Shown here: one piece after another, positions 1 through 11,384 of the stretch
Position numbering within the stretch: position 1 is the first letter of the stretch
How the letters are laid out: every line of letters begins with the position of its first letter
DNA from: Clostridium sp.
GTDB lineage: Bacteria > Bacillota_A > Clostridia > Lachnospirales > Lachnospiraceae
NCBI GenBank assembly: GCA_023666975.1
Contig: JAMPAW010000110.1
Location: 1 to 11,384 of the forward strand
Reading direction: 5' to 3'
DNA: 11,384 nucleotides
Program-made: the position numbers and the translations under genes
The notes under the pieces: model-generated
Database searches by the model: none
The model's input: only the letters and a program-made list of their open reading frames with translations
Told to the model about the DNA's origin: nothing

Positions 1-259
1 ATGCTTCGCCAATAAGCTCGTCCTTTACCTCGATGTCATAATCAAGGACACGAAACATTTCCGATTCCACTATGTACTCATCATCTGTTTTCAACTGTTC
101 CAGCTCCCCCTCTGTTAATTCCGAGAAAGAAACTTCATGCTTCAGCCGATAGCTTCTCGCCCGTTCATAGTCAATCATTTCATTCTTCAGTAAGGTTTTG
201 CAGAAGCTGTCGAATTGCTTTCTTATTCTTATCTGCTTTTCGGAAGAAGATTGCTCCAT
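1..259 (-). CDS. Tn916 Orf7-like sigma-70 family factor (partial, 5' portion)
   Basis: The reading frame opens with ATG at 259-257 and stays open for 86 codons to the window edge, so the C-terminal half is missing. An AGGAGG at 274-269 lies 9 nt upstream of the start. The peptide (MEQSSSEKQIRIRKQFDSF... then HEVSFSEL, EYIVESEMFRVLDYDIEVKDE) follows the N-terminal pattern of the small sigma-like Orf7 of Tn916-type elements, which has a QFDYICK-like start, an EVSFSDV-like segment and an ...VENDLLSEAL-like end. In those elements Orf7 helps drive the xis/int and excision-transfer programme. The helix-turn-helix region expected after about residue 90 lies outside the window, so DNA-binding residues cannot be checked. 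The family assignment is from remembered sequence similarity; the divergent XRE gene supports it. Confidence 0.78.
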   Translation of the reverse strand, partial: MEQSSSEKQIRIRKQFDSFCKTLLKNEMIDYERARSYRLKHEVSFSELTEGELEQLKTDDEYIVESEMFRVLDYDIEVKDELIGEA

Positions 260-292
260 AAGAGATCACCTCCTTCCGTACCCACCTGAACA

Positions 293-316
293 GAGTGAAA
301 TATCTCCCTTTCACTC
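293..316 (-). repeat. Hairpin in the sigma-gene leader
   Basis: GAGTGAAA (293-300) and TTTCACTC (309-316) are a perfect 8-bp inverted repeat with an 8-nt loop. On the minus strand the loop reads GGGAGATA. The hairpin sits about 20 nt upstream of the sigma gene's ribosome site, so it could influence translation or mRNA stability. A second, shorter repeat (GCGTTC-ATG-GAACGC) lies at 342-356. Confidence 0.5.
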
Positions 317-360
317 CATAGCACGAATGGAAATTGTCAGAGCGTTCATGGAACGCACAT

Positions 361-380
361 TTTCTAAAAACTTTTAGAAA
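361..380. repeat. 20-bp palindrome with 2-nt centre, possible operator
   Basis: TTTCTAAAA (361-369) and TTTTAGAAA (372-380) are perfectly inverted around a 2-nt centre. The loop is too short for a stable RNA hairpin at full length, so a dimeric protein binding site is a reasonable reading. No binding protein can be assigned. Confidence 0.4.
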
Positions 381-384
381 TATA

Positions 385-427
385 TAAAAGACGCCCAAAC
401 AGGTATAAAACCTATGGACGTCTTTTA
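385..427 (-). terminator. Stem-loop with flanking U-tract in leader (probable attenuator)
   Basis: TAAAAGACG (385-393) pairs with CGTCTTTTA (419-427), and a smaller inner stem AGGT/ACCT lies within 401-413. Read on the minus strand, the 3' arm runs into CTTTTATATATTT, a moderate U-tract, so this can act as a terminator in the leader of the sigma-like gene. The plus-strand tail is weaker. The stem is A+T-rich, so strength is uncertain. Confidence 0.5.
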
Positions 428-444
428 TCTCACAATATGAATTT

Positions 445-557
445 GCAGCTACATCTTCGTAATCTCTAGCACTACCTTTAAGGGTGTTATCGGCAATCAC
501 ATCTGCTATGATTTTTTTGACTGCTCAATACCTATATCCCTTTTAAGTTGTAGCTGC
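445..557. repeat. Long-range 9-bp inverted repeat
   Basis: GCAGCTACA (445-453) and TGTAGCTGC (549-557) are perfect inverse complements separated by 95 nt. They could close a large multi-branch RNA structure in the leader. No T-run follows either arm. Function is not known. Confidence 0.35.
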
Positions 558-573
558 TGCATGGTGATCTCCA

Positions 574-630
574 CGCAATCGCAAGACAAAAAAGCACTTG
601 AAAAAGCCTTTTGCGGATTGCGTTTTTTTT
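574..630 (+). terminator. Rho-independent terminator, plus strand (arm A with arm A')
   Basis: CGCAATCGCAA (574-584) pairs with TTGCGGATTGCG (611-622) with a single bulged G and is followed at once by eight T (623-630), the classic layout of an intrinsic terminator for plus-strand transcripts. Its loop contains arm B of a competing hairpin (590-603), and arm A' can also pair with 632-643. The position upstream of the XRE gene means a plus-strand transcript starting further left would end here. Confidence 0.65.
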
Positions 631-658
631 ACAATCCCAAAGGATTTCAAGTGCTTTT
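588..658 (-). terminator. Long alternative hairpin and minus-strand terminator (B-A'-C-B')
   Basis: AAAAGCACTTGAAA (590-603) is a perfect 14-nt inverse complement of 645-658. Inside it, CCTTTTGCGGATTG (607-620) pairs with CAATCCCAAAGG (632-643). The result is a stem of about 26 pairs with a T-rich loop. Read on the minus strand the structure ends in TTTTTTG (593-587), fitting a terminator ahead of the sigma-like gene. Because it uses arm A', it excludes the 574-630 hairpin. Confidence 0.6.
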
Positions 659-663
659 GTAGT

Positions 664-730
664 GTTATGCACTACTTATTTTTAATCTTTAACACTTTTC
701 ACTTTTTGCAGGTATCGTTATACACTACTT
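664..730 (+). repeat. Direct repeat GTTATRCACTACTT flanking the repressor promoter zone
   Basis: GTTATGCACTACTT (664-677) recurs as GTTATACACTACTT (717-730), 13 of 14 bases identical, 53 bp apart and just upstream of the XRE gene. The first copy is also part of the inverted repeat GTAGTG-TTATG-CACTAC (659-675). The placement fits operators for the adjacent XRE repressor (autoregulation), which is inference. Confidence 0.4.
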
Positions 731-755
731 GAAAGAAGTCACAGGAGGTGAAAAA

Positions 756-1091
756 GTGTCAAATATAACTCCCACTTTAGGGCAAATAATGAAGAAAGCC
801 CGGCTTGAGCAAAGGCTTACGCAGGAAGAAATTGCAGAACGCATCGGCTGCCATCCGCAATATTACAAAAACCTTGAAAATGATAAGGGTACACCAAGCA
901 TCCAGCTCTTTTGTACTATCATGCGTACATTAAACATATCTGCTGATTCATACGTTTACCCAAATCAGAACGCAAACGATCCCTGCTATCAAAAGATTTT
1001 GCAGTTGCTTGGACAATGCAGCCAGTACCAGCTCTCCGTCCTGCTGGCAACAGCAGAAGCTCTAGTCCGGGATAATCCCCACAAAGAATAA
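756..1091 (+). CDS. XRE-family helix-turn-helix repressor, Tn916 Orf9-like
   Basis: A 111-residue protein with an N-terminal Cro/C1-type helix-turn-helix at about residues 8-68: GQIMKKARLEQRLTQEEIAE, then RIGCHPQYYKNLENDKGTPS, then a third helix and the closing ISADSYVYP. Residues 75-111 form a short helical tail of no known function. I chose GTG at 756 because AGGAGGTG at 743-750 lies just upstream; the longer frame from TTG at 729 would place that ribosome site inside the gene. It is transcribed away from the Orf7-like sigma gene, the same divergent relation as orf9 and orf7 in Tn916-type elements, where the repressor is thought to restrain transfer and excision genes. Autoregulation through the 14-nt direct repeat is inferred. 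Family call is firm; ICE role is by context. Confidence 0.85.
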   Translation: MSNITPTLGQIMKKARLEQRLTQEEIAERIGCHPQYYKNLENDKGTPSIQLFCTIMRTLNISADSYVYPNQNANDPCYQKILQLLGQCSQYQLSVLLATAEALVRDNPHKE

Positions 1092-1206
1092 TGATACATA
1101 GAAAACATAGATTTTCTCATACCAAAATGTAACCACTTCTAATTCATTTATAGTTCTTTTATAGATTTTCACATCACTTTATAGAATTAGCAGATGTGTT
1201 ATATTC

Positions 1207-1239
1207 AAAAGGCTCATATCCACCCGGAATGAGCTTTTT
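1207..1239 (+). terminator. Rho-independent terminator after the XRE gene
   Basis: GCTCAT (1212-1217) pairs with ATGAGC (1229-1234), extended by AAAA (1207-1210) with TTTT past one bulged G, and followed by TTTTT (1235-1239). It lies about 115 nt after the XRE stop codon. The A-tract on the left could let it also work on the minus strand, stopping the winged-helix transcript. Nothing else supportable is seen in 1092-1303. Confidence 0.65.
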
Positions 1240-1303
1240 CTCATACTTGATTTTCCATTTTCATTTTCTACTATAAATAATATTTCCACATTGCAACGCA
1301 AAA

Positions 1304-1342
1304 TGAGCAGACATTACTATCTTGCCCTGTAACATCTGCTCA
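1304..1342 (-). terminator. Terminator overlapping the stop codon of the winged-helix gene
   Basis: TGAGCAGA (1304-1311) pairs with TCTGCTCA (1335-1342), and the stem continues with ATTAC/GTAAC-type pairing inside. On the minus strand the stem starts in the TGA stop codon and is followed by TTTTGCG. The U-tract is short, so moderate confidence. Confidence 0.5.
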
Positions 1343-1765
1343 CTTTGTTCCTTCGCTGAATTTATAACCCACTCCCCATACAGTAATGATATATCTTGGG
1401 TGTGCCGGATCAGGCTCTATCTTCCTTCTGATTTTGTTAATATATGCTGTCATGTTCCGTTCATCAAAAACATACTCATTGTTCCAGACAGCATCATATA
1501 TCTGCTCTTTGCTGAAAACACGCCCCCTGTTCCTTGCCAATAATATCAGTATTTCAAACTCCTTGCCTGTCAGAAAAATCTCTTTCCCATCACGAAAGAC
1601 CTGATAATTCTCTGGTATGATTTCTAAATCTTTAATATGCAGTATCATATTTTTGTCCGGAGAGATTGTTTGAAGCTGATAACCACTTCCATTTATTACC
1701 TCCAACAGTTTTGTATATATTTCTTCATTTGAAGTATCAAGATGAAGAATCACTATTTCGCTCAA
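1340..1765 (-). CDS. OmpR/PhoB-type winged-helix regulator lacking a receiver domain
   Basis: A 141-residue protein whose C-terminal part (about 46-138) is a complete OmpR-type winged-helix DNA-binding domain: LTGKEFEILILLARNRGRVF (65-84), SKEQIYDAVW (85-94), then NMTAYINKIRRKIE and the terminal wing ITVWGVGYKF (127-136). The W in place of the usual R in TVRGVGY resembles VanR-type proteins. The first 45 residues are far too short for a receiver (about 115 residues) and show no phospho-acceptor pattern, so control by phosphorylation is unlikely. The start is TTG at 1765-1763 with AAAGGA at 1775-1780; no ATG fits the frame better. It is divergent from blaI and its promoter contains two BlaI-type dyads, so it is probably induced together with the resistance genes. 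Its own targets are unknown. Confidence 0.85.
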   Translation of the reverse strand: MSEIVILHLDTSNEEIYTKLLEVINGSGYQLQTISPDKNMILHIKDLEIIPENYQVFRDGKEIFLTGKEFEILILLARNRGRVFSKEQIYDAVWNNEYVFDERNMTAYINKIRRKIEPDPAHPRYIITVWGVGYKFSEGTK

Positions 1766-1803
1766 TTAAAACCATCCTTTCACTACATTTTGTATTACCG
1801 CCC

Positions 1804-1825
1804 AAATCTTACTCATGTAATATTC
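1804..1825. promoter_or_regulatory. BlaI-type operator O1
   Basis: AAATCTTAC-TCAT-GTAATATTC, an imperfect dyad with a 4-nt spacer. It overlaps the predicted transcription start of the minus-strand winged-helix gene. It matches the staphylococcal bla/mec operator style (TTACAnnTGTAAT-like core). Confidence 0.75.
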
Positions 1826-1826
1826 C

Positions 1827-1848
1827 AATTATTACACTTGTGAGATTT
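1827..1848. promoter_or_regulatory. BlaI-type operator O2
   Basis: AATTATTAC-ACTT-GTGAGATTT; on the reverse strand it reads AAATCTCAC-AAGT-GTAATAATT. It sits between the -35 and -10 of the minus-strand promoter, so bound BlaI would block polymerase there. It starts 1 nt after O1, giving a tandem pair. Confidence 0.75.
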
Positions 1849-1856
1849 AATGTCAA
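1829..1856 (-). promoter_or_regulatory. Sigma-A promoter of the winged-helix gene
   Basis: On the minus strand TTGACA (1856-1851), a 16-nt spacer and TAATAA (1834-1829). The spacer is largely operator O2 and the start region is O1, the same layout as in the PBP operon promoter. Confidence 0.7.
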
Positions 1857-1874
1857 GAGAATTTCATCAAAAAT

Positions 1875-1903
1875 TTGACATTTCCTGATTTTCACACTAT
1901 AAT
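1875..1903 (+). promoter_or_regulatory. Consensus sigma-A promoter of blaI-blaR1
   Basis: TTGACA (1875-1880), a 17-nt spacer and TATAAT (1898-1903): a perfect consensus promoter on the plus strand. Operator O3 begins 1 nt after the -10 box and covers the predicted start site. Confidence 0.88.
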
Positions 1904-1925
1904 GGATATTACAACCGTAAGATTT
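1904..1925. promoter_or_regulatory. BlaI-type operator O3
   Basis: GGATATTAC-AACC-GTAAGATTT; reversed, AAATCTTAC-GGTT-GTAATATCC. It lies directly after the -10 box and before the ribosome site of blaI, so it fits repression and autoregulation of blaI-blaR1. Confidence 0.78.
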
Positions 1926-1940
1926 AAGGAGGATTCAAAA

Positions 1941-2327
1941 GTGAAAACATTACCACAAATTTCAGAAGCAGAATTTGAAGTGATGAAAGTCATATGGAAA
2001 CACGCACCGATCAGCACCAATGAAATCACAGACAAATTGACACAGACTACCAAATGGAGTCCCAAAACAATACAGACTTTGATAAAACGCCTTGTAACAA
2101 AAGGAGCGCTTTCTTATGAAAAGCATAGCAGGGTATTTGTTTACACGCCTTTGGTAGAAGAAAAAGAATATATTGTTCAGGAAAGCCATTCTTTTCTTGA
2201 ACGATATTATAATGGTGATATTACCGCAATGCTTTCTGCCTATATCGAAGATGACAAGCTCTCAGAGGAAGAAATAGACACCTTGCGTTCACTTCTCTCA
2301 AGGGATTCAAAAGACAGGGGGAATTAA
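1941..2327 (+). CDS. blaI: BlaI/MecI-family beta-lactam-responsive repressor
   Basis: A 128-residue winged-helix repressor. The start is GTG at 1941 with AAGGAGGA at 1926-1933; the longer frame from 1875 would begin inside the promoter. The BlaI pattern is clear: ISEAEFEVMKVIWKHAPIST (7-26), recognition region WSPKTIQTLIKRLVTKGAL (39-57), the beta wing SRVFVYTPLV, and the C-terminal dimerisation helices (80-120) ending LSEEEIDTLRSLLS. Family members bind paired dyads as dimers and are inactivated by proteolysis after BlaR1/MecR1 senses a beta-lactam. At the position of the staphylococcal Asn-Phe cleavage site this protein appears to have Ala100-Tyr101. It is followed after 1 nt by blaR1, so the two are translationally coupled. 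Operator O3 over its start site indicates autoregulation. Confidence 0.93.
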   Translation: MKTLPQISEAEFEVMKVIWKHAPISTNEITDKLTQTTKWSPKTIQTLIKRLVTKGALSYEKHSRVFVYTPLVEEKEYIVQESHSFLERYYNGDITAMLSAYIEDDKLSEEEIDTLRSLLSRDSKDRGN

Positions 2328-2328
2328 A

Positions 2329-4125
2329 ATGTCAGATTTTGGAATACGCTTTTTCCTATGCAATATCCTGATTTGCCTTATCATAGGCATACTTCTTATA
2401 ACAAAACGTGCATTTAAGAACTATTTAACCAGCCGTATGCAGTTCAATTTATGGTTTGTGCTGCTTGGACTTCTCGCAGTTCCATTTATTCCTTTCCGCC
2501 CGGTTGGATTCCCGCAGATTCTCTCATGGATTGGCACACTAAGAAACGCTGCATCGCCAGACATGGATAATAATACAAAAAATACTGAAAACTGGAATAT
2601 ATCCGGCACTTCAAGACAAATGAATGATTTTGCACTCTCTGTCAGCAGCGAAACACCCTCCATTGTCGGATTGATCCTATGCGGAATATGGCTGGTTGGC
2701 ATCCTTGCAATGATTCTGCTGGTAATAAAATCCCAAAACCGTTTAAACACCCTGAAAAAATCTGCACTTCCTTTACAGAATGAAGAAGTGCATAAGTTAT
2801 ACAATGACTGTTTAAGCGAAATGAAAATTAAAAAAATGATTCCCATTTACAGCACTGCTTTTTTGAAATCCCCCATCATCGTAGGATTATTTAGACCTTG
2901 TATTTATCTGCCAATCCACCTGATATCAGATTTCAATGTTACAGATATGCGATATATGCTGCTGCATGAATTACAGCACTATAAACATAAAGATGCCCTT
3001 GCAAGTTACCTGATGAACATTATTGGTGTGCTTTATTGGTTCAATCCTTTTGTATGGTATGCACTGAAAGAAATGCGTAATGACAGGGAAATCGCCTGTG
3101 ACACATCTGTACTGAAAATGCTTGTAGAAACAGATTATGAGGATTACGGAAACACGCTGATTAACTTTGCAGAAAAAGTTTCCCTTACCCCATTCCCTTT
3201 TGCTGCCGGAATCAGCGGAAGCATGAAACAGATGCAAAAGCGGATTATCAATATTTCCTCTTACAAAAAACCTTCTGTATGGAGGACTTTAAAAGGATTT
3301 ACCGCTTTTTCCACCATTGCATTTATTCTCTTGGGGATTACTCCGATGTTGTCCACTTATGCCGCAGACCAAAGCCGGTATCAGTGGAACACAACCTCTG
3401 AAAATATTTCTGCCGTTGATCTATCTGCATACTTTAGTGGCTATGAGGGCAGCTTTGTCCTATACAGCCAGAGGGACAATAAATGGCAGATTTATGATAT
3501 GGATCGTGCCACTTTAAGGACAGCGCCAAATTCTACCTACAAAATATATGATGCGCTGTTTGGATTGGAGGAAGGCGTTATTACACCAGAGGATTCTTTC
3601 ATGGCATGGAATGGGACTGAATATCCTTTTGAAACATGGAATACCGACCATAACCTGTATTCTGCAATGGAATCTTCCGTCAACTGGTACTTTCAGGAGA
3701 TAGATAACAGGCTCGGTGCATCTACAATCAGGAACTATGTCGATAAGATTGGATATGGGAATAAAACCATAAATTCTAACCTTGCTTCCTACTGGATGCA
3801 AGGGGCATTAAAAATCTCTCCGGTAGAACAGGTAGGGCTTTTAACAGACCTCTACAATAACCGTTTTCATTTTGCCCCGGAGAATGTAGATGCTGTAAAA
3901 GAATCCATCTGCCTTTTTTCATCAGAAAACAAAAGTTTTTACGGAAAGACCGGAACCGGACGCATAGACGGTCAGGACGTGAACGGTTGGTTTATCGGCT
4001 ATATAGAAACCGCTGACAATACATACTTTTTTGCCACCAATATCCAGTCCACAGAAAATGCCACAGGCAGCAAGGCATCAGAAATTTCCCTATCCATCTT
4101 ATCCAATATGGGGATATGGCAATAA
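2329..4125 (+). CDS. blaR1: BlaR1/MecR1-family beta-lactam sensor and M56 metalloprotease
   Basis: A 598-residue membrane sensor-transducer close to the usual length of about 585-600. Hydrophobic segments lie near 6-25, 39-58, 111-133 and 322-342. The cytosolic M56 protease part has the zinc motif HELQH (213-217) with the likely third ligand Glu254 in REIACD. From about 360 the extracellular sensor is class D beta-lactamase-like: STYK (402-405, acylated Ser402, general-base Lys405), SSV (449-451), YGN (476-478) and KTG (540-542) followed by WFIGY. All catalytic motifs are present. A beta-lactam would acylate Ser402 and the signal would activate the protease and remove BlaI. It starts 1 nt after blaI with AGGGGG as ribosome site. 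It is a sensor, not a secreted beta-lactamase. Confidence 0.93.
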   Translation: MSDFGIRFFLCNILICLIIGILLITKRAFKNYLTSRMQFNLWFVLLGLLAVPFIPFRPVGFPQILSWIGTLRNAASPDMDNNTKNTENWNISGTSRQMNDFALSVSSETPSIVGLILCGIWLVGILAMILLVIKSQNRLNTLKKSALPLQNEEVHKLYNDCLSEMKIKKMIPIYSTAFLKSPIIVGLFRPCIYLPIHLISDFNVTDMRYMLLHELQHYKHKDALASYLMNIIGVLYWFNPFVWYALKEMRNDREIACDTSVLKMLVETDYEDYGNTLINFAEKVSLTPFPFAAGISGSMKQMQKRIINISSYKKPSVWRTLKGFTAFSTIAFILLGITPMLSTYAADQSRYQWNTTSENISAVDLSAYFSGYEGSFVLYSQRDNKWQIYDMDRATLRTAPNSTYKIYDALFGLEEGVITPEDSFMAWNGTEYPFETWNTDHNLYSAMESSVNWYFQEIDNRLGASTIRNYVDKIGYGNKTINSNLASYWMQGALKISPVEQVGLLTDLYNNRFHFAPENVDAVKESICLFSSENKSFYGKTGTGRIDGQDVNGWFIGYIETADNTYFFATNIQSTENATGSKASEISLSILSNMGIWQ

Positions 4126-4131
4126 TAAAAT

Positions 4132-4192
4132 AATGCTCCTTTTTAAGCAATCCATATAAAATGCGGTTACTTAAAAAGGGCATTGTTTCTTT
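4132..4192. terminator. Bidirectional terminator between blaR1 and the PBP operon
   Basis: AATGCTCCTTTTTAAG (4132-4147) pairs with CTTAAAAAGGGCATT (4170-4184) with one unpaired base. It is followed by GTTTCTTTT on the plus strand and by a T-rich tract (from the A-rich 4121-4131) on the minus strand. It separates the two converging units. Confidence 0.75.
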
Positions 4193-4208
4193 TATAATCC
4201 ATACTACT

Positions 4209-5195
4209 TTACCAAACATCTAAATTGGACAGTATCTCAAGGTTTGCCTTCTCATATTCATTAAATACGTTATCATTAAAATCTGCACTCTTACAAGTGG
4301 GATTATACCAAATACACCCCATAAAGTAATTATATAAATCCTCATTGGCAAATATATAACCATGCCTTGCATATATTTCATTTTTTGCTAAATGAATTAC
4401 CAGCATTGGCTCATTTTCAAACTCCTCTTTTGTGTAGTATTTCTTATCCGTTTCAAACAACGGTTCAATCACATTTGAAATGTCCCGTACCTCTCTGACA
4501 TTTTCCCAATAATCAATTATTTCAGAATAATAGGCGCTGGCTCTATAATACCCACTTCTTTCATTGATTGCATTTATCATTTCCTCCTCTGTCCATGACG
4601 AATTATAACTTGAATGATCAGCAATGTCATTCTCTGTAAAATCTTCTTTCGGTCTTATTAACTCAAAAGAGCCACTAATGCCATAATCACTGCCATTATC
4701 TGCCTTTTTATAATTCAATACCTCTACATATATGCTGTCACTTAGAAATTGGATATGCAATGTTCCACTGTTTCCCCATTCATCATCAGAATAATCAAAA
4801 TATAATTCTGCCTGTTCTATTTTTCCACTAATATCCTCAATCGACGCAAACCGCTGCGTTATTTCCTGCTGTGAAAAAAGTGTTCCCGAAAATTGATTAT
4901 CTCCCGTAACCGTACATGATAATTCAATTCCTCCCCCTGACAAAATCTGTTCATGCGTTTTTCCCTCATAAGACCAATAACCACTGTATTCATCATAGGA
5001 AACATTATCTTGTATAGTTTCTTCTTTTATTTCTAAATTTTCATTTTCAACTGTCTGCTCATTGCTTTCCTGCTGACTTGCAGCAGGTTCATCTGTATTT
5101 ATAATTTCATCTTCTCTTACCTGTCCACAAGCAACAATATTCAAAGCTGTTAGAATAATACATACCAACATTGCTGTCTTTTTATGTCTGTTCAT
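4209..5195 (-). CDS. Exported lipoprotein with C-terminal YARHG domain
   Basis: A 328-residue protein starting MNRHKKTAMLVCIILTALNI followed by VAC, a lipoprotein signal with the likely lipidated Cys23. A Glu/Asn/Gln-rich linker (about 28-60) follows. The region about 65-190 has alternating polar and hydrophobic stretches (GGIELSCTVTGDNQFSGTLF) and no family I recognise. The C-terminal 60-70 residues hold a YARHG domain: NEIYARHGYIF (272-282) and, further on, YFMGCIWYNP. YARHG domains occur in extracellular proteins and their function is unknown. I chose ATG at 5195 because AGAGGG lies 7 nt upstream; ATG at 5225 (10 residues longer) lacks a ribosome site. It is the last gene of the PBP operon, 37 nt after the previous stop, and is probably BlaI-controlled. 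Confidence 0.85.
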   Translation of the reverse strand: MNRHKKTAMLVCIILTALNIVACGQVREDEIINTDEPAASQQESNEQTVENENLEIKEETIQDNVSYDEYSGYWSYEGKTHEQILSGGGIELSCTVTGDNQFSGTLFSQQEITQRFASIEDISGKIEQAELYFDYSDDEWGNSGTLHIQFLSDSIYVEVLNYKKADNGSDYGISGSFELIRPKEDFTENDIADHSSYNSSWTEEEMINAINERSGYYRASAYYSEIIDYWENVREVRDISNVIEPLFETDKKYYTKEEFENEPMLVIHLAKNEIYARHGYIFANEDLYNYFMGCIWYNPTCKSADFNDNVFNEYEKANLEILSNLDVW

Positions 5196-5232
5196 ATTCA
5201 TACCCTCTTTTCTTTTCATCGTCATTTATTTA

Positions 5233-6519
5233 TCAATCTCTTATTCCTTGTTCTGTTTCATTCTTCCCTATCCGGTATTGATATTCCGGTATATTTGAAA
5301 TCCCATCATCCAGAATTTTGTTTCCTAAATACTGAAAACTTCCATCTTCTGCAAATTTCACCGTAAGCTCATGGGTTATCACTGCATCATCACATAAAAT
5401 CATGCTGCACACCGCATCCACAGTTAATGTGACTGTTCCATCTTTGTTTTCTCTGATGTCCGTAACCTCTGGAAAGGAAGTTCCAAAATAGGTAGGCGCA
5501 TAATTAAAGCAGCCCAGCCTTGCCCATTCATAGGTTTGAAAGTTCTTATTAAATACCGCATATTTCTGTAATTCCTCTGGTGTTATAGGAAGATATTCCA
5601 TAATCAATTTTTCAAATTCTTCTTTTGGTATTCCCTTTTCATAATTTTCAGGATTAAACTTTTCTCCATATTCCATCATATAAAGATATTCGTACAATCC
5701 ATTATAATCCAAATCTTCCATATGCCCTGCATCCCAATTAGAACATAAAATATTATTACCCTGATAAGCCAGTCCGAGTACACACTTTTTTGACATTTCT
5801 CTGTTTTCATCAGTCATTGGTTTTATCCTGATCATACAGCTCCCATTTACCATTTCCGTCACTTCCGGATATTCCGGTACGCACAATTCATAACAAAACC
5901 AGCCTTTATCCGTATATTTCCACTCTTTTATTCTGGTATATGAAATGTAAGAAATGATCGGTTCACTTCCACTCTCCCATACAGCAGTTGCGCCTAGTAC
6001 ATACATATTTGTCCCGTCAAAGATAAATTTCATTCGCCCTATGCCGCCATCGGAATGTATCTCATATATTACTATCGAACCACTTACACCTTTTATACAT
6101 TCCCTAAGAAATTTGTCTACGCCCTCGAAATTTTCCATATTAAAATATATCCCTGTCACTATAACCGGACTTTCTGTATCTTTTAGTTCACTCTGCATTT
6201 TAAGTATCGTATCATCCGTAAGCACAGCATTAAAAGCATCACCCTTGTCTGCCTTTTCATAAATTCCATATATGCGTTCCATCATTTTTTTACAATCGTT
6301 TTCTGCTTCTTCTTTTTGACTGTAATCCACAGGCAAATCATAACCTTTTTCCATCTGCTCATTTATATCCGACTTTCCCACTGTTATTTCTGCATCTTCT
6401 GTCTGATTATTTTCCCCAACCTTTTTATCATCTTCCATTGGTGTATTTTTCCCACAGGCGCAGAATACGGTAATACATAATAGCAGATTGACGAGTAAAA
6501 CACATTTCTTTTTTAACAT
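5233..6519 (-). CDS. Exported paralogue 1 (probable lipoprotein, about 430 residues)
   Basis: A 428-residue protein with signal peptide MLKKKCVLLVNLLLCITVFC and probable lipidated Cys22; the lipobox FCAC is atypical. An acidic linker (28-75) leads to the mature domain. It shares two blocks with the next two genes upstream: 231-282 (IKPMTDENREMSKKCVLGLA, then NNILCSNWDAG...LYEYLY) and 355-402 (RENKDGTVTLTVDAV, HELTV, DGSFQYLGN). A NMENFEG motif (127-133) matches NMENYEG of the neighbour. No catalytic motif is visible. From memory it may belong to an uncharacterised family annotated DUF6070, which I cannot verify here. It starts 15 nt after the preceding stop with AAAGGA about 10 nt upstream. 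Role unknown; a cell-surface partner of the PBP is inference from the operon. Confidence 0.82.
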   Translation of the reverse strand: MLKKKCVLLVNLLLCITVFCACGKNTPMEDDKKVGENNQTEDAEITVGKSDINEQMEKGYDLPVDYSQKEEAENDCKKMMERIYGIYEKADKGDAFNAVLTDDTILKMQSELKDTESPVIVTGIYFNMENFEGVDKFLRECIKGVSGSIVIYEIHSDGGIGRMKFIFDGTNMYVLGATAVWESGSEPIISYISYTRIKEWKYTDKGWFCYELCVPEYPEVTEMVNGSCMIRIKPMTDENREMSKKCVLGLAYQGNNILCSNWDAGHMEDLDYNGLYEYLYMMEYGEKFNPENYEKGIPKEEFEKLIMEYLPITPEELQKYAVFNKNFQTYEWARLGCFNYAPTYFGTSFPEVTDIRENKDGTVTLTVDAVCSMILCDDAVITHELTVKFAEDGSFQYLGNKILDDGISNIPEYQYRIGKNETEQGIRD

Positions 6520-6534
6520 ACTAATTCTGTCCTT

Positions 6535-7827
6535 TCATTTTTCTATCCTCGGCACTTCCATTTCCTTCTGCTCTATGGAATTGGATAAATACCTGAATGT
6601 GCCATCAGCAAATGGCTGTACCACAATCTCGTTTGTAAAGGCATAATCTGAATTGTAATCTGCCCAAACTCCGTCTACATATAATGTGATTGTCCCGTCT
6701 GGATTTTCTGTATAGTCAACAACTTCTCCAAAAGGCGGGTATGGACTTGCAAATATCATTTCATATTTATAACTGTTGCTGTTTTCATCATATCCGCACT
6801 TTTCCCGTAACTGCCCTATTGACACCGGAAAATATGTAGTCATTATTTTTTCGTATGTTTCTGCTGGTATTTTCCAGTTTTCGGTCTTTAAATTTTCCCC
6901 TGTATATATCCGGTATATATCTTCAAACATACAGGGCATCAGAATATCTTCTACATTACTGCTGTCCCAATTTGTCACAAGAACATTGTAATTGATATAG
7001 CTCAATCCATATACATATTTAGCGGTCAATTCCCTGCATTTATCAGAAAGCGGCTTAATCCTCCAATATTGGCGCAAACTGGAATGTGCTATCACTTCTT
7101 CATACGCATAAATGAAATATCCCTTATCCGTCAGCTTGATTTCTGCTATATTGCTGACTAAGGTACTCTTAATCTCTGGTATGCCACCCTCACGCCAGCC
7201 AATCCCCACATAATATGTCTGTAATTCGCTGTTTCGGTATATAAAAGTCAGGACACTGATCAGACCGTCCCGGTTCACGTCATAAATCGTCACCATCGCA
7301 TTCCGCTTTTCCATATAAGCATCATAAAAATCTTCTATTCCCTCATAATTTTCCATATTCGTATCTTCCGCCACGCTGACATAACCTGCTTTTCCAAGAA
7401 GTGAAACGACTGTTTCACGCTGCTTACTTGTAAACACCTTAATATTAGAACCATAAGCGGATTCCCCTGTCAGTTCTATGTCTTTATATACTTCTTTCAC
7501 CTGCTCTGCCGCTGTCAATGCCGCAGCTTCCAATTCGCTTTTTTCCGTTTCGGTTATCAAGCAGTATTCCGCTTGCGGAAGAAACCATAAAGCTGTTTCC
7601 GATCCGCTTTCTTCCCCAATATCATTATCTGATATTTCTTCTTTATCATCAGACTGTATGGCTATATTTTCAGTAAATATCTCTACGGGCGGTTCCCAAA
7701 CTTCTTCTGAAGTATTCTTATTCTTTCTGTTCCAATGCCCGACAATAAGACTTGCTGCAATTATAACTATAAATAATGCCCCAAAAATTACTCCCCATTT
7801 TTTTAACAGCCATTTCACATCTTCCAC
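6535..7827 (-). CDS. Exported paralogue 2 (signal-anchored membrane protein, about 430 residues)
   Basis: A 430-residue protein with a basic N-terminus (KKW) and one strong membrane segment at about 12-30 (GVIFGALFIVIIAASLIVG). It has no cysteine near the segment, so it is anchored by an uncleaved helix and not by lipid, unlike its two paralogues. An acidic linker (38-80) precedes the shared domain, with blocks at 257-309 (IKPLSDKCRELTAKYVYGLS, then NVLVTNWDSS...FEDIYRIY) and 372-418 (TENPDGTITLYVDGV, NEIVVQPFADGTFRYLSN). The motif VNRDGLISVL (184-193) also appears degenerate in paralogue 1. The start is GTG at 7827, whose G is the last base of the previous gene's TAG, with GGAGGAGAGG just upstream: tight coupling in one operon. 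Function unknown. Confidence 0.82.
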   Translation of the reverse strand: MEDVKWLLKKWGVIFGALFIVIIAASLIVGHWNRKNKNTSEEVWEPPVEIFTENIAIQSDDKEEISDNDIGEESGSETALWFLPQAEYCLITETEKSELEAAALTAAEQVKEVYKDIELTGESAYGSNIKVFTSKQRETVVSLLGKAGYVSVAEDTNMENYEGIEDFYDAYMEKRNAMVTIYDVNRDGLISVLTFIYRNSELQTYYVGIGWREGGIPEIKSTLVSNIAEIKLTDKGYFIYAYEEVIAHSSLRQYWRIKPLSDKCRELTAKYVYGLSYINYNVLVTNWDSSNVEDILMPCMFEDIYRIYTGENLKTENWKIPAETYEKIMTTYFPVSIGQLREKCGYDENSNSYKYEMIFASPYPPFGEVVDYTENPDGTITLYVDGVWADYNSDYAFTNEIVVQPFADGTFRYLSNSIEQKEMEVPRIEK

Positions 7828-9122
7828 TATTCCTCTCCTCCATAGGTTTCTTTCGGAAAAAGTTTTTCCCTTTCTTCCTCCGTCAAACGGTCAGAATGCC
7901 ACCACACATCATATTCATCTACTGCCGTAATCATCTGATTCGATACATATTGAAAACAATCCTCACTTAATGGACGGATTACAACCTTATGTGAATATGA
8001 TTTAGACGTATTTTCATTTGGATATACTGCATTGATGATGAGTGTGATTGTTCCGTCCTCATTTTCTTTGTAGCTTACTACTTCCGGATATGGAATGTCA
8101 GGGTATTCAACCTCATAGAACCCTCTTATCCTGTATTCATAAGCGGCATCTTCCGCTGAATATACTGTCTTTTCCCGAATCGTTTCCCTGTCTATATTGA
8201 AATAGGTCATAATGACATTTTCAAATAAATTTTCCGGTATCTGATAAACTGAATCTTCCCCTAAATTTTCATTTGCAGAATAAGGAACAGCCTGCCCATT
8301 TAAAATCGGATAAAAAATATCAAATATATCATAAAAATCCAAATTCCCGAAGTTTTCTTCATTCCAGTCAATAAGAAAGATATTATTGCGCTCATAGCCA
8401 ATCGGCAATATGTATTTTCTGTTTAATTCCCTGCACTTTTCGTCCAAGGGCAAAACCCGCAGCGCCGTATGCTCTGGCGTATCACTCAATGTCAGTATAA
8501 AATTTTCATCTGAAAAATAGCTCCCTTCAAAAATTAAATACCCCTCTGCTGTGTATTCCCACACATCTGCCGGATAGCTTACCGTACTTCTGTTTTGCAG
8601 ATGTCCGTTTTGATCATATTGGTAATATCCCCTGACAACATTTACCTTACCGCCCTCTGTTTGCAAATCAAATTTCCAAAACCCAAATATATCCCGAATC
8701 ACGATAATTGTAATTTTGTCATTATCCTCATTATCTACTGCTTTGCAAAACTCTACTGTCCGTTCTGCCCCTGCCATGTCAACCTGATTTCCACTGTCAA
8801 CAGCTATATAGCCATTCTCCCAAAGCCTGTCAACAATACGACGCTTTACTTCCAGATTGTCATACACTTTTGTTTCTACTGCTTCATCAAAAATATCACG
8901 ATAAATGGCTATTATACCCTCTGCATCAATGCAATCACTTTCATCAACAGAAGATACTTCATCATCTGCCAATGTTATCTCAATATCTGACACCTCCGGC
9001 GGTTTGTCGCTGCATCCAGCCAGCATGAACATTATCAAGCTGGTTAATGCTATGAAATGATACTTTCTATTCTTTTCTGTCAAACCAATTCTCCAAAACC
9101 TTTTTATCTTTTTCCACAACAT
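7827..9122 (-). CDS. Exported paralogue 3 (lipoprotein, about 430 residues)
   Basis: A 431-residue protein with a clean lipobox LAGC (lipidated Cys37), then an acidic linker. Shared blocks lie at 224-274 (LPLDEKCRELNRKYILPIGY, then NNIFLIDWNEENF...FYDIFDIFYP) and 350-396 (YKENEDGTITLIINAV, HKVVIRPLSEDCFQYVSN). Two starts are possible. ATG at 9122 has GGAGGA about 8 nt upstream but lies 56 nt inside the PBP gene, and that GGAGGA also codes the PBP Gly-rich motif. TTG at 9083 has GGAG 7 nt upstream, overlaps the PBP by only 17 nt and gives a more typical 23-residue signal (MTEKNRKYHFIALTSLIMFM, LAG, C24). I give the longer form but regard the TTG as at least equally likely. First accessory gene after the PBP; function unknown. 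Confidence 0.82.
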   Translation of the reverse strand: MLWKKIKRFWRIGLTEKNRKYHFIALTSLIMFMLAGCSDKPPEVSDIEITLADDEVSSVDESDCIDAEGIIAIYRDIFDEAVETKVYDNLEVKRRIVDRLWENGYIAVDSGNQVDMAGAERTVEFCKAVDNEDNDKITIIVIRDIFGFWKFDLQTEGGKVNVVRGYYQYDQNGHLQNRSTVSYPADVWEYTAEGYLIFEGSYFSDENFILTLSDTPEHTALRVLPLDEKCRELNRKYILPIGYERNNIFLIDWNEENFGNLDFYDIFDIFYPILNGQAVPYSANENLGEDSVYQIPENLFENVIMTYFNIDRETIREKTVYSAEDAAYEYRIRGFYEVEYPDIPYPEVVSYKENEDGTITLIINAVYPNENTSKSYSHKVVIRPLSEDCFQYVSNQMITAVDEYDVWWHSDRLTEEEREKLFPKETYGGEE

Positions 9123-11181
9123 AGCCGCTTCCTCCTCTTCCTTTTACATCTTCTACCATACTAACAATAAGAATCGGCTTATCCTCTGTTCTTTCCGCCG
9201 TAAAGACTGCAAACCATCCAAGCTCAGTCCCGGAAGTGTCCCCCTTAGATGCTTTTATTTCCGCTGTCCCGGTTTTTCCCGCCAGCAGAATATCTTCCCG
9301 GTGCGCTGCATATCCGGTTCCATGAGGATCATTTACCACCTTTTTAATTCCTTCCAATACAAGGTTTGAATTGTCCGCCGAAAAAGCGCCTAAAATCCAA
9401 TACTCCGGTTCTGCTTTCTGATTAAATACGAGATAAGGTTTTATCATGTTTCCCTCATTGCAAAAAGCACTATACATACACGCCATATGTAACGGATTTA
9501 CTAAAATCTGTCCCTGTCCATATCCACTGTCTGCTAATTGTATTTCCGTTTCAATATTTTCTGTATTAGAATACTGCGATTTAGCCATTACAATTTCAAA
9601 TGGCAATTCCTCATTAAAACCCAAACGCATCAAAGATTCTTTCATTTCTTCTGCCCCGATCTTCAATGCTGCCTTTGCGAAATAAATATTATCGGAATAA
9701 ATCAATGCGTTTTCTAAAACAACCGGATTGTAATCATGGAGAGTTGTCACATGATATGAACCCCATGATGCGTCTTTCTGCCAGCTTAATCCTACATTCC
9801 CATAGTCCTCATTTGGATCAACAGCTCCTGACTGCAAACCAATCGCCGCAGTGACCGGCTTAAATGTAGAACCCGGACACCATACTTGTCGGAAACGGTT
9901 ATACATTGGTTTATTCTCATCTTCATTCAGCGCTGCCCACTTTTCACTGGATAATCCCATAATAAAATCATTGTTATCATAAGACGGTGTGCTTACCAAT
10001 GCCAGCACTTCCCCTGTGTATGGATTCATTGCTACTGAACAGCTTTTATCATTCTGAAACTGTTCATATAAAGCCTTTTGAAGTTCTGAATCAATTGTCA
10101 GCTTTATATCTTTTCCATTCTCAACTATGCGGCAGGCTAATTCTTCTTTTTCATTCCCCTCAGAATCTACAATATAAATCCGACACCCGTTCTGTCCTTT
10201 TAATTCATTCTCAAACAATCCCTCTGCCCCGCTTCTTCCAATCACGCTGCTTGCTGTATAACCTTCTCCGATATGGTTTTCTAAATCTTCCGCTGTCACA
10301 TTCTGAATATAGCCAACCAAATGCGCTGCTGCATCCTTTAATGGATACTGCCTTATTTCCACATCCGAAATCATGACTCCCGGTATTTCTAATAACTTCT
10401 GCTGTCTTTCATGCTCTTGCAAAATCTCTGCATCAGGCTCTAATGACATAAGCTCTATTTCCATAACTTTTTTCACTGTTTTTACTGGAACAAAAGAATC
10501 CTCCTTTACCCACTTTGCAGATAATTTCTTTTCGATTTCTTCCGGCTTCATTTCCAATAAATCTGCAATAAGCTCTATGGAATTATCTTGGTTTTCTAAT
10601 TTTCCCGGCACAATCCCTACGGAAGATGCAACCCCCTTTCCTGCAAGAACATATCCATTCCTGTCCAATATTTCTCCCCGCTTTGCCTGTGTAGTGGACA
10701 CCCTTACTTTATCCGTCCCGGATAATCCCGGATAAATTAAAGAATCTGTCCATGCAAGTTTGTAACCATCTTCCTTTTTTACAAAAAACGCTTCATTATC
10801 AAACACAATATTTCCAGCAACCGTATCAAATGAAGTCTGATATTGCACCCTGTTTTTTTCTTTGTCGTAAGAGATAATTGTAATAGTCATATTTTGTACT
10901 TCCATGCCTTCATAAATGGCAGAATTACGTTTTACAAAATCTTCCTCGCTAATCTGTCCTGAAACCTCAATATCTATTATTTGGTACATTTCTTTATAAT
11001 TTTGTTCCTGAATGTAACCCATATATCTAAGCAAAACTTCTTCCGGAGTTTCCTGATGACCTATTACTTCTAAATATTTTATTGAACATATGGTAATTAC
11101 ACTTATTCCCACAATCACTACAAGCAGCCATAAGGCTATATATTTTCTCTTTCTTTTTCTGTGTCCGCTTTTTCTTTTCAT
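9067..11181 (-). CDS. MecA-like class B penicillin-binding protein (transpeptidase)
   Basis: A 704-residue bitopic protein: basic cytosolic tail (KRKSGHRKRKRK), membrane helix about 14-37, a MecA_N/NTF2-like domain (about 43-155, TPEEVLLRYMGYIQEQNYKE), a PBP dimerisation domain (about 160-345, RGEILDRNGYVLAGKG) and the transpeptidase domain (about 375-700). All three active-site motifs are present: STFK (438-441, acylated Ser438), SDN (496-498) and KTG (636-638). It crosslinks peptidoglycan outside the membrane. The same architecture is found in PBP2a and in enterococcal PBP5, both of low beta-lactam affinity; low affinity here is inference. It is somewhat longer than PBP2a (668). GGAGG lies 5 nt before the ATG. 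First gene of a five-gene operon with a BlaI-type promoter, so probably induced by beta-lactams. Confidence 0.92.
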   Translation of the reverse strand: MKRKSGHRKRKRKYIALWLLVVIVGISVITICSIKYLEVIGHQETPEEVLLRYMGYIQEQNYKEMYQIIDIEVSGQISEEDFVKRNSAIYEGMEVQNMTITIISYDKEKNRVQYQTSFDTVAGNIVFDNEAFFVKKEDGYKLAWTDSLIYPGLSGTDKVRVSTTQAKRGEILDRNGYVLAGKGVASSVGIVPGKLENQDNSIELIADLLEMKPEEIEKKLSAKWVKEDSFVPVKTVKKVMEIELMSLEPDAEILQEHERQQKLLEIPGVMISDVEIRQYPLKDAAAHLVGYIQNVTAEDLENHIGEGYTASSVIGRSGAEGLFENELKGQNGCRIYIVDSEGNEKEELACRIVENGKDIKLTIDSELQKALYEQFQNDKSCSVAMNPYTGEVLALVSTPSYDNNDFIMGLSSEKWAALNEDENKPMYNRFRQVWCPGSTFKPVTAAIGLQSGAVDPNEDYGNVGLSWQKDASWGSYHVTTLHDYNPVVLENALIYSDNIYFAKAALKIGAEEMKESLMRLGFNEELPFEIVMAKSQYSNTENIETEIQLADSGYGQGQILVNPLHMACMYSAFCNEGNMIKPYLVFNQKAEPEYWILGAFSADNSNLVLEGIKKVVNDPHGTGYAAHREDILLAGKTGTAEIKASKGDTSGTELGWFAVFTAERTEDKPILIVSMVEDVKGRGGSGYVVEKDKKVLENWFDRKE

Positions 11182-11219
11182 AATAACCTCCGCATTGCAC
11201 TATTAGTATCAGTAACGCT

Positions 11220-11245
11220 GTAAATCTTACTGGTGTAAGATTTAC
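11220..11245. promoter_or_regulatory. BlaI-type operator O4 (perfect dyad)
   Basis: GTAAATCTTAC-TGGT-GTAAGATTTAC: perfect 11-bp arms with a 4-nt spacer, the most symmetric of the five copies. It covers the predicted transcription start of the PBP operon. Confidence 0.85.
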
Positions 11246-11248
11246 ATA

Positions 11249-11270
11249 AAATATTACACCAGTAAGATTT
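11249..11270. promoter_or_regulatory. BlaI-type operator O5
   Basis: AAATATTAC-ACCA-GTAAGATTT; reversed, AAATCTTAC-TGGT-GTAATATTT. It occupies the spacer and -10 box of the PBP promoter. Its reverse complement shares 18 identical bases (TAAATCTTACTGGTGTAA) with O4. Confidence 0.83.
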
Positions 11271-11279
11271 AAAAGTCAA
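11251..11279 (-). promoter_or_regulatory. Sigma-A promoter of the PBP operon
   Basis: On the minus strand TTGACT (11279-11274), a 17-nt spacer and TAATAT (11256-11251). The spacer is operator O5 and the start region is O4, so repressor binding and polymerase binding should exclude each other. The leader to the ATG is about 65 nt. Confidence 0.85.
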
Positions 11280-11315
11280 GTAAATTTATATTTGCACTGC
11301 TCTATATGCTTATAA

Positions 11316-11340
11316 TCGACACACCCTCTGGGAGTGTCGA
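11316..11340. repeat. Strong hairpin upstream of the PBP operon
   Basis: TCGACAC-A-CCC-TCT-GGG-A-GTGTCGA: an inverted repeat with 11-position arms (one A:A mismatch) and a 3-nt loop. No T-run follows on either strand, so it is not a normal terminator. It could be the end of a leader RNA or a protein site of the ICE backbone. Confidence 0.5.
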
Positions 11341-11360
11341 AAGACAAGAATAGCAAGCAC

Positions 11361-11384
11361 TGCCCATGTCCGGACACATGGGCA
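11361..11384. repeat. Inverted repeat at the right window edge
   Basis: TGCCCATGT (11361-11369) and ACATGGGCA (11376-11384) are perfect inverse complements around CCGGAC; the centre also contains the palindrome TGTCCGGACA (11368-11377). The structure reaches the last base, so its outer arms and any T-run are cut off. It could be a terminator or attenuator of the neighbouring genes. Confidence 0.5.

Follow-up and report, generated by a model that had tools for sequence, protein, structure and literature searches.

DUF6070 proteins as candidate BlaI-controlled surface partners of a class B penicillin-binding protein in Lachnospiraceae

The bla and mec divergons, in which BlaI-BlaR1 or MecI-MecR1 accompany blaP/blaZ or mecA, are among the closest described relatives of the system analysed here: a run of genes for a class B penicillin-binding protein (PBP) and three proteins of Pfam family DUF6070 (PF19546; termed D3, D2 and D1), located beside blaI and blaR1 on a contig of Clostridium sp. 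(Lachnospiraceae; GCA_023666975.1, JAMPAW010000110.1, positions 1 to 11,384 of the forward strand). This whole stretch of 11,384 nucleotides is referred to as the window. Sensor and repressor families are shared with the divergons, as is the output, a PBP of predicted low affinity. Unlike in the divergons, the PBP run is convergent to blaI-blaR1, and it includes the three DUF6070 genes and a gene for a YARHG-domain protein; to our knowledge, classical bla and mec divergons are without such surface proteins. The Bacillus licheniformis divergon carries three operators (PMC3305447), and several were likewise predicted in the window.

The three-domain build of the window PBP is shared with enterococcal PBP4 and PBP5, Staphylococcus aureus PBP2a and Bacillus subtilis PBP3. 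From PBP4(5) and PBP2a it differs by falling below their NCBIfam cut-offs, by its DUF6070 neighbours and by having relatives that are naturally fused with DUF6070. As far as we know, PBP2a, PBP5 and similar proteins are usually viewed as enzymes that work without dedicated partners. Known activators and cofactors of PBPs, namely Gram-negative outer-membrane lipoproteins, MacP and CofA, are partners on which a particular PBP depends (PMC10746261, PMC7205459). Activators of the Lpo, MacP and CofA type act on class A bifunctional PBPs, whereas DUF6070 is found with a class B transpeptidase. DUF6070 is also predicted to be drug-induced, and D1-D3 matched none of the activator families named in Pfam and NCBIfam searches. 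PrsA is a general chaperone that is encoded elsewhere. Its support of PBP2a, together with HtrA1, is an example of a MecA-type PBP needing an extracytoplasmic lipoprotein (PMC6858329); no such domain was found in DUF6070.

We consider it moderately probable that the members of DUF6070 serve a β-lactam response as auxiliary subunits, anchored in the membrane and facing outward, that are controlled by BlaI and assist a low-affinity PBP. The tie of the family to BlaI-type operators and MecA_N PBPs, made here by sequence comparison, appears to be new, and the system would be of a known kind (BlaRI, i.e. BlaR1 and BlaI, with a low-affinity PBP) equipped with a set of surface components that was not found described. 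Pfam assigns DUF6070 no function, and the name was not found in the literature searched (open-licence papers only). In a bacterial family common in the gut, some members appear to couple a low-affinity PBP and one to three surface proteins of their own under one drug-sensing switch; where no PBP adjoins, the surface proteins often still stand behind this palindrome. If true, DUF6070 would gain its first functional assignment and inducible β-lactam tolerance of gut commensals a new component, and the study of extracellular help to class B PBPs would have a test case.

The gene run and its proteins

The five-gene run on the minus strand consisted of the PBP gene as first gene (9067..11181), D3 (7827..9122; 431 aa), D2 (6535..7827; 430 aa, GTG start), D1 (5233..6519; 428 aa) and the YARHG-domain protein (4209..5225), with joints, from the coordinates, of −56, −1, +15 and +7 bp. 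The overlaps and short gaps behind the PBP that the initial annotation had reported are borne out by these values, the YARHG gene having been omitted there. The convergent plus-strand genes were blaI (about 1941..2327, with a GTG start behind AAGGAGG; the longer open reading frame begins at 1875) and blaR1 (2329..4125). BlaI scored 124 bits against Pfam Penicillinase_R (cut-off 22.6), and BlaR1, with an M56 metallopeptidase and a penicillin-binding sensor domain, 673 bits against NCBIfam BlaR1 (NF000326, cut-off 400); a protease-and-sensor BlaR1 adjoining BlaI is the arrangement of a BlaRI-regulated response.

The PBP exceeded the cut-offs for MecA_N, PBP_dimer and Transpeptidase and contained the SxxK, SxN and KTG motifs as STFK, SDN and KTGT, and was classed by these domains and motifs as a class B PBP with a MecA_N domain. 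It scored below the cut-offs of the NCBIfam models for PBP2a/MecA (NF000237; 443.8 bits, cut-off 750) and PBP4(5) (NF051842; 600.3 bits, cut-off 700). The closest solved relative was 7bn9 (deposited as PBP3, presumably from B. subtilis; 457 bits), followed by PBP5, PBP4 and PBP2a chains, and by analogy with these solved relatives we infer a low β-lactam affinity.

Profile searches assigned all three downstream proteins to one Pfam family, DUF6070 (cut-off 27 bits), with 444.4 bits for D1 (positions 1-345 of 345), 229.4 bits for D2 (3-336) and 396.7 bits for D3 (7-345). The three tandem paralogues proposed initially are therefore full-domain members of DUF6070, with BLASTP identities of 34% (D1/D2), 26% (D1/D3) and 28% (D2/D3; E-values from 2e-46 to 3e-22 over the three pairs). 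Their likeness in two shared blocks was confirmed, and its restriction to these blocks was not, since it extends over the whole domain. In a midpoint-rooted FastTree of 143 DUF6070 domains, the D2 type formed one group (25/25, support 1.0), as did 56 of 60 D3-type rows (support 0.98) and 57 of 58 D1-type rows (support 0.62). Because the groups are separate, D1, D2 and D3 look like old, stable types, in line with the old duplications suggested earlier.

An exported or surface location had also been suggested and agrees with the N-termini: lipobox-like leaders were read from the sequence in D3 (LAGC) and, in less typical form, in D1 (FCAC), and D2 begins with a long hydrophobic helix. In the fetched loci, a script for lipoboxes and hydrophobic stretches gave a lipobox for 94/109 D3 and 67/85 D1 proteins and a transmembrane stretch for 55/81 D2 proteins, and no anchor in 21 D parts (15 D2, 6 D1) that were fused behind another D. 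The AlphaFold model of D2 was confident (mean pLDDT 86.3, pTM 0.77; pLDDT of at least 90 for 302 of the 430 residues) and reads, by its secondary structure, as two alpha/beta lobes. Comparison with solved structures gave no clear match; the C-lobe was only weakly similar to NTF2-like chains.

Predicted BlaI operators

A 22-bp dyad, AAATnTTAC-n4-GTAAnATTT, occurred five times in the window at up to three mismatches, with 0.29 copies expected and none of 200 shuffles reaching five, which upholds the BlaI-type promoter of the initial annotation. The copies were confined to the PBP promoter (two) and the interval between blaI and a divergent OmpR_C gene (three). Predicted operators 1 (11222..11243; a perfect dyad, AAATCTTAC-n4-GTAAGATTT) and 2 (11249..11270) of the PBP run were free of mismatches; those of the blaI interval had one mismatch (1804..1825), two (1827..1848) and two (1904..1925, directly before blaI).

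The dyad was then counted in 170 loci, a pool of loci retrieved with a window-built query (79, biased) and loci from genome surveys, within 400 bp upstream of the start of the profile match (not the annotated start codon) and at up to one mismatch unless stated; the palindrome query was itself derived from the sites of the window, and the profiles for PBP, BlaR1, BlaI and D1-D3 were built on the biased loci and the window. It was present upstream of 38/45 PBP genes, at 26/41 operon-first DUF6070 genes with BlaRI in the locus and at 15/66 without, and before none of 206 operon-internal DUF6070 genes. Random control windows away from these genes gave 1/5,235 (25/5,235 at up to three mismatches). 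The dyads of blaI promoters were less perfect (22/72 at up to one and 64/72 at up to three mismatches). The survey loci alone gave 18/25 for PBP, 8/38 for BlaI, 9/17 and 7/37 for the first D gene with and without BlaRI, respectively, and 0/59 for internal D genes.

Predicted operators were in this way shared between blaI and its putative targets, as in a BlaRI-regulated response, and because the palindrome is present at both, BlaI is presumed to bind it. Since operon-first DUF6070 genes often carry the dyad and internal copies do not, a BlaI-type repressor appears to target DUF6070 itself in addition to the PBP, and the membership of DUF6070 in a BlaI-type regulon is, at the level of sequence, well supported.

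A DUF6070 lineage without the upstream palindrome was also observed (L046, L048, L049, L051, L053, L055, L058 and L071-L073), in many cases close to a gene resembling blaI; the partner of that gene in L049 was an M56 protease lacking a sensor domain.

Fusions, neighbourhood and alternative roles

D3-D2 fusions were recurrent in the fetched loci (e.g. L008, L011, L032, L033, L047, L059 and L063), and D3-D2-D1 chains were found in L052 (1195 aa), L060 (1130 aa) and L126 (982 aa), with nine further triple-chain proteins identified by length (1087-1240 aa) and coverage (at least 98% of L060). At least 12 proteins in which MecA_N, PBP_dimer and Transpeptidase are followed by DUF6070 were found among the 120 matches listed of 183. 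By profile, and among these listed matches, the 12 comprised five PBP-D1, five PBP-D3 and two PBP-D3-D1 fusions, and nine of them kept all of SxxK, SDN and KTGT. P0242, P0251 and the PBP-D1 group lacked a DUF6070 leader, the domain following the PBP C-terminus. P0240 retained the leader internally, and P0311 and P0312 had a partial DUF6070 domain; all three could reflect a recent joining or an error in the sequence. About 70 PBP residues were missing from P0309 and the SxxK stretch from P0315. In the PBP-D3-D1 fusions P0214 and P0216 (80% identical to each other across the part searched), SAFE and TAFE replace STFK, with loss of the SxxK lysine, and the SDN stretch is lacking; from these changes, the PBP part fused to DUF6070 looks like a pseudo-enzyme that has been retained.

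The fusions and the anchor pattern together place DUF6070 outside the cell, near the transpeptidase domain. The fusions also support a working link of DUF6070 with the PBP (PBP-DUF6070 chains) and among the three paralogues (double and triple D chains), in line with the multi-subunit surface complex suggested at the outset, and make the claim of partnership directly testable. Given the fusions and the gene order, a subunit or helper role is the best explanation, and from these sequence features we infer gene induction, contact between the D proteins and the PBP, and an assisting effect. In such a mechanism, BlaR1 would sense the β-lactam and BlaI would leave its operators; the low-affinity PBP would be produced together with D3, D2 and D1. 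The D proteins would assemble at the external surface of the membrane, close to the C-terminal transpeptidase domain, whether individually anchored, joined in a single chain or built into the PBP chain. With the normal PBPs blocked, they would aid the low-affinity PBP by positioning, activating or stabilizing it. More tentatively, and with less confidence than in an auxiliary role as such, the D proteins could be drug-induced subunits on the outer surface that are dedicated to a low-affinity class B PBP, without a described precedent in the searches made here. They would form a PBP holo-complex whose three auxiliary chains go back to old duplications and sometimes merge with each other or with the PBP; with the pseudo-PBP of P0214 and P0216, the complex might also serve as a non-catalytic scaffold.

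A chaperone role for DUF6070 is possible. Dedicated extracellular folding or stability factors for the PBP, like PrsA and HtrA1 for PBP2a, would account for the lipoprotein-type leaders and for an operon shared with the likely client, and the folding of PBP2a requires an extracytoplasmic lipoprotein chaperone (PMC6858329). We nevertheless regard this explanation as unlikely: no foldase or protease family was matched by D1-D3 in Pfam and NCBIfam, three diverged paralogues in recurring order fit subunits better, and permanent fusion to a client would be atypical for a chaperone.

Genome searches with PF19546 were centred on a Blautia glucerasea genome (L020, G001) as seed; the spread of the genome draws over groups within order, family, class and phylum was not stated. 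Hits above cut-off were obtained in 27/392 genomes of its order and 72/397 of its family (seed included in both), in the seed alone of 391 genomes drawn class-wide, in the seed and one further genome (29 bits) of 299 drawn phylum-wide, and in none of 14 control genomes. The weak phylum-wide hit (G1272, contig 11, 5851-6132; a 399-aa frame) is possibly a distant relative.

Neighbourhood frequencies were taken from the genome surveys only. Ninety-one regions were fetched, of which L148 (seed genome) was excluded from counts and L147 contained no DUF6070 by the profiles; left unfetched were G881, G886 and G779:C205 (fragments or contig edge), G964:C19 (weak) and the second cluster of the seed. 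Of 91 clusters, 89 exceeded 150 bits, and 61 were evaluable, with at least 3 kb upstream and 6 kb downstream. A PBP stood within 1 kb of DUF6070 in 20/61 clusters, in 18 of them directly upstream, with several overlaps, and downstream in L135 and L195; BlaR1 or BlaI stood within 5 kb in 28/61. The BlaR1 matches in that range, 29 in number with some being pieces of one gene, were without exception opposite in strand to DUF6070. Adding the palindrome (up to two mismatches) to PBP and BlaRI gave at least one link in 39/61. All 89 clusters gave 26 with PBP, 40 with BlaRI, 47 with either and 42 with neither, and dereplication at 80% (56 clusters) left 16, 23 and 28, with any link in 34. Homologues standing mostly apart from a PBP or BlaR1, which the initial annotation had set against its own proposal, were narrowly not the rule, with 33/61 clusters (28/56 dereplicated) having a PBP or BlaRI; the three proteins being 'locked into' a PBP operon was too strong a wording, as 28/61 clusters had neither. 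Among 61 scanned neighbours of clusters without PBP and BlaRI, no Pfam family occurred in more than two, which we count in favour of the assisting role.

With BlaRI as the commonest neighbour and the palindrome frequent at DUF6070 genes, the proteins might instead modulate BlaR1 signalling, as feedback or co-sensor. This seems very improbable, as the fusions found among the matches listed join the PBP and not BlaR1, no search having been aimed at BlaR1 fusions.

The genomes agreed in part with a PBP partnership. For the MecA_N survey, 60 of the 72 DUF6070 genomes were used, the seed being dropped along with 11 genomes whose hits were mostly fragments or at a contig edge. A MecA_N PBP was detected in 41/60 genomes with DUF6070 and 10/93 without, and 23 of 44 MecA_N hits in DUF6070 genomes adjoined DUF6070 (coordinates matched by eye). 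BlaR1 was above cut-off in 44/80 genomes, by listing 43/60 with and 1/20 without DUF6070.

Several results weigh against an assisting role. No PBP, BlaRI or palindrome was found at 22/61 clusters, and no MecA_N PBP was detected in 19/60 DUF6070 genomes (completeness not given), for which reason the family can probably exist without such a partner. The genome comparisons were made without correction for relatedness, and the 93 DUF6070-free genomes were no random sample (20 first listed, 73 by neighbouring index number). Fusion was rare: the 153 genomes sampled gave 54 MecA_N hits, none with a frame above 770 aa. The AlphaFold model of a PBP-D1 fusion (pTM 0.43), with D1 confident and much of the PBP poor, was uninformative on PBP/D1 contact and gave a defined arrangement no support. 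In a tree of 50 PBPs (branch supports not displayed), the DUF6070-adjacent PBPs formed essentially one clade, with two outside (L200 and L135) and five members without a DUF6070 neighbour inside (L221, L226, L228, L235 and L237). As the adjacent PBPs are mostly one clade, the linkage may largely go back to one ancestral event and have been kept with losses. Of 31 non-adjacent MecA_N hits, 25 had been taken for this tree, six being short or at a contig edge, and two of the 25 were dropped with the PBP in pieces.

Loci without a PBP, such as L001, and genomes without one leave room for BlaI-regulated envelope protection, in which DUF6070 would act by itself on the damaged wall, by binding peptidoglycan, lipid II or the drug, and the PBP would merely be a fellow member of the regulon. 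Besides the genomes without a detected MecA_N PBP, the 13/61 clusters with BlaRI and no PBP and six more with the palindrome as only link speak for this explanation, which we take seriously but judge rather improbable: it leaves unaccounted the leaderless DUF6070 domains on the PBP C-terminus in P0242, P0251 and P0307-P0310, and the position of 18 of the 20 adjacent PBPs directly upstream of DUF6070. The auxiliary-subunit role is retained as the preferred reading.

The module probably moves between genera, judged from near-identical DUF6070 blocks in Clostridium fessum (L017) and Roseburia inulinivorans (L018; 99.7% over 2,504 bp), probably a recent transfer, and from L012, where a gene upstream of the PBP encodes YodL and ArdC-type domains. 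The L018 locus (strain DSM 16841) contains the PBP, three DUF6070 genes and BlaRI.

Accessory genes of the window and related loci

The YARHG-domain protein, which has a lipoprotein-like leader, had a 94% identical relative in L033 and parts in L006 and L011. At its position other loci carried different small proteins (protein clusters c5, c7 and c20), and the single scanned member of each matched no Pfam family above cut-off. In L006 (13437-14354, plus strand), a 305-aa protein of transpeptidase fold was found behind the DUF6070 gene and before BlaR1; among window proteins it was most like the BlaR1 sensor domain, and it is perhaps a class D β-lactamase.

The OmpR-type DNA-binding domain protein without a receiver (1340..1765, minus strand) is divergent from blaI across the three predicted operators and may be a second-tier regulator or a further member of the regulon; a 41% identical relative was located beside blaI in L044. 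An XRE-type regulator (729..1091, plus strand) is a side gene of the window, and relatives were found near blaI, in the same loci, in L014, L016, L020, L029, L041, L044 and L050.

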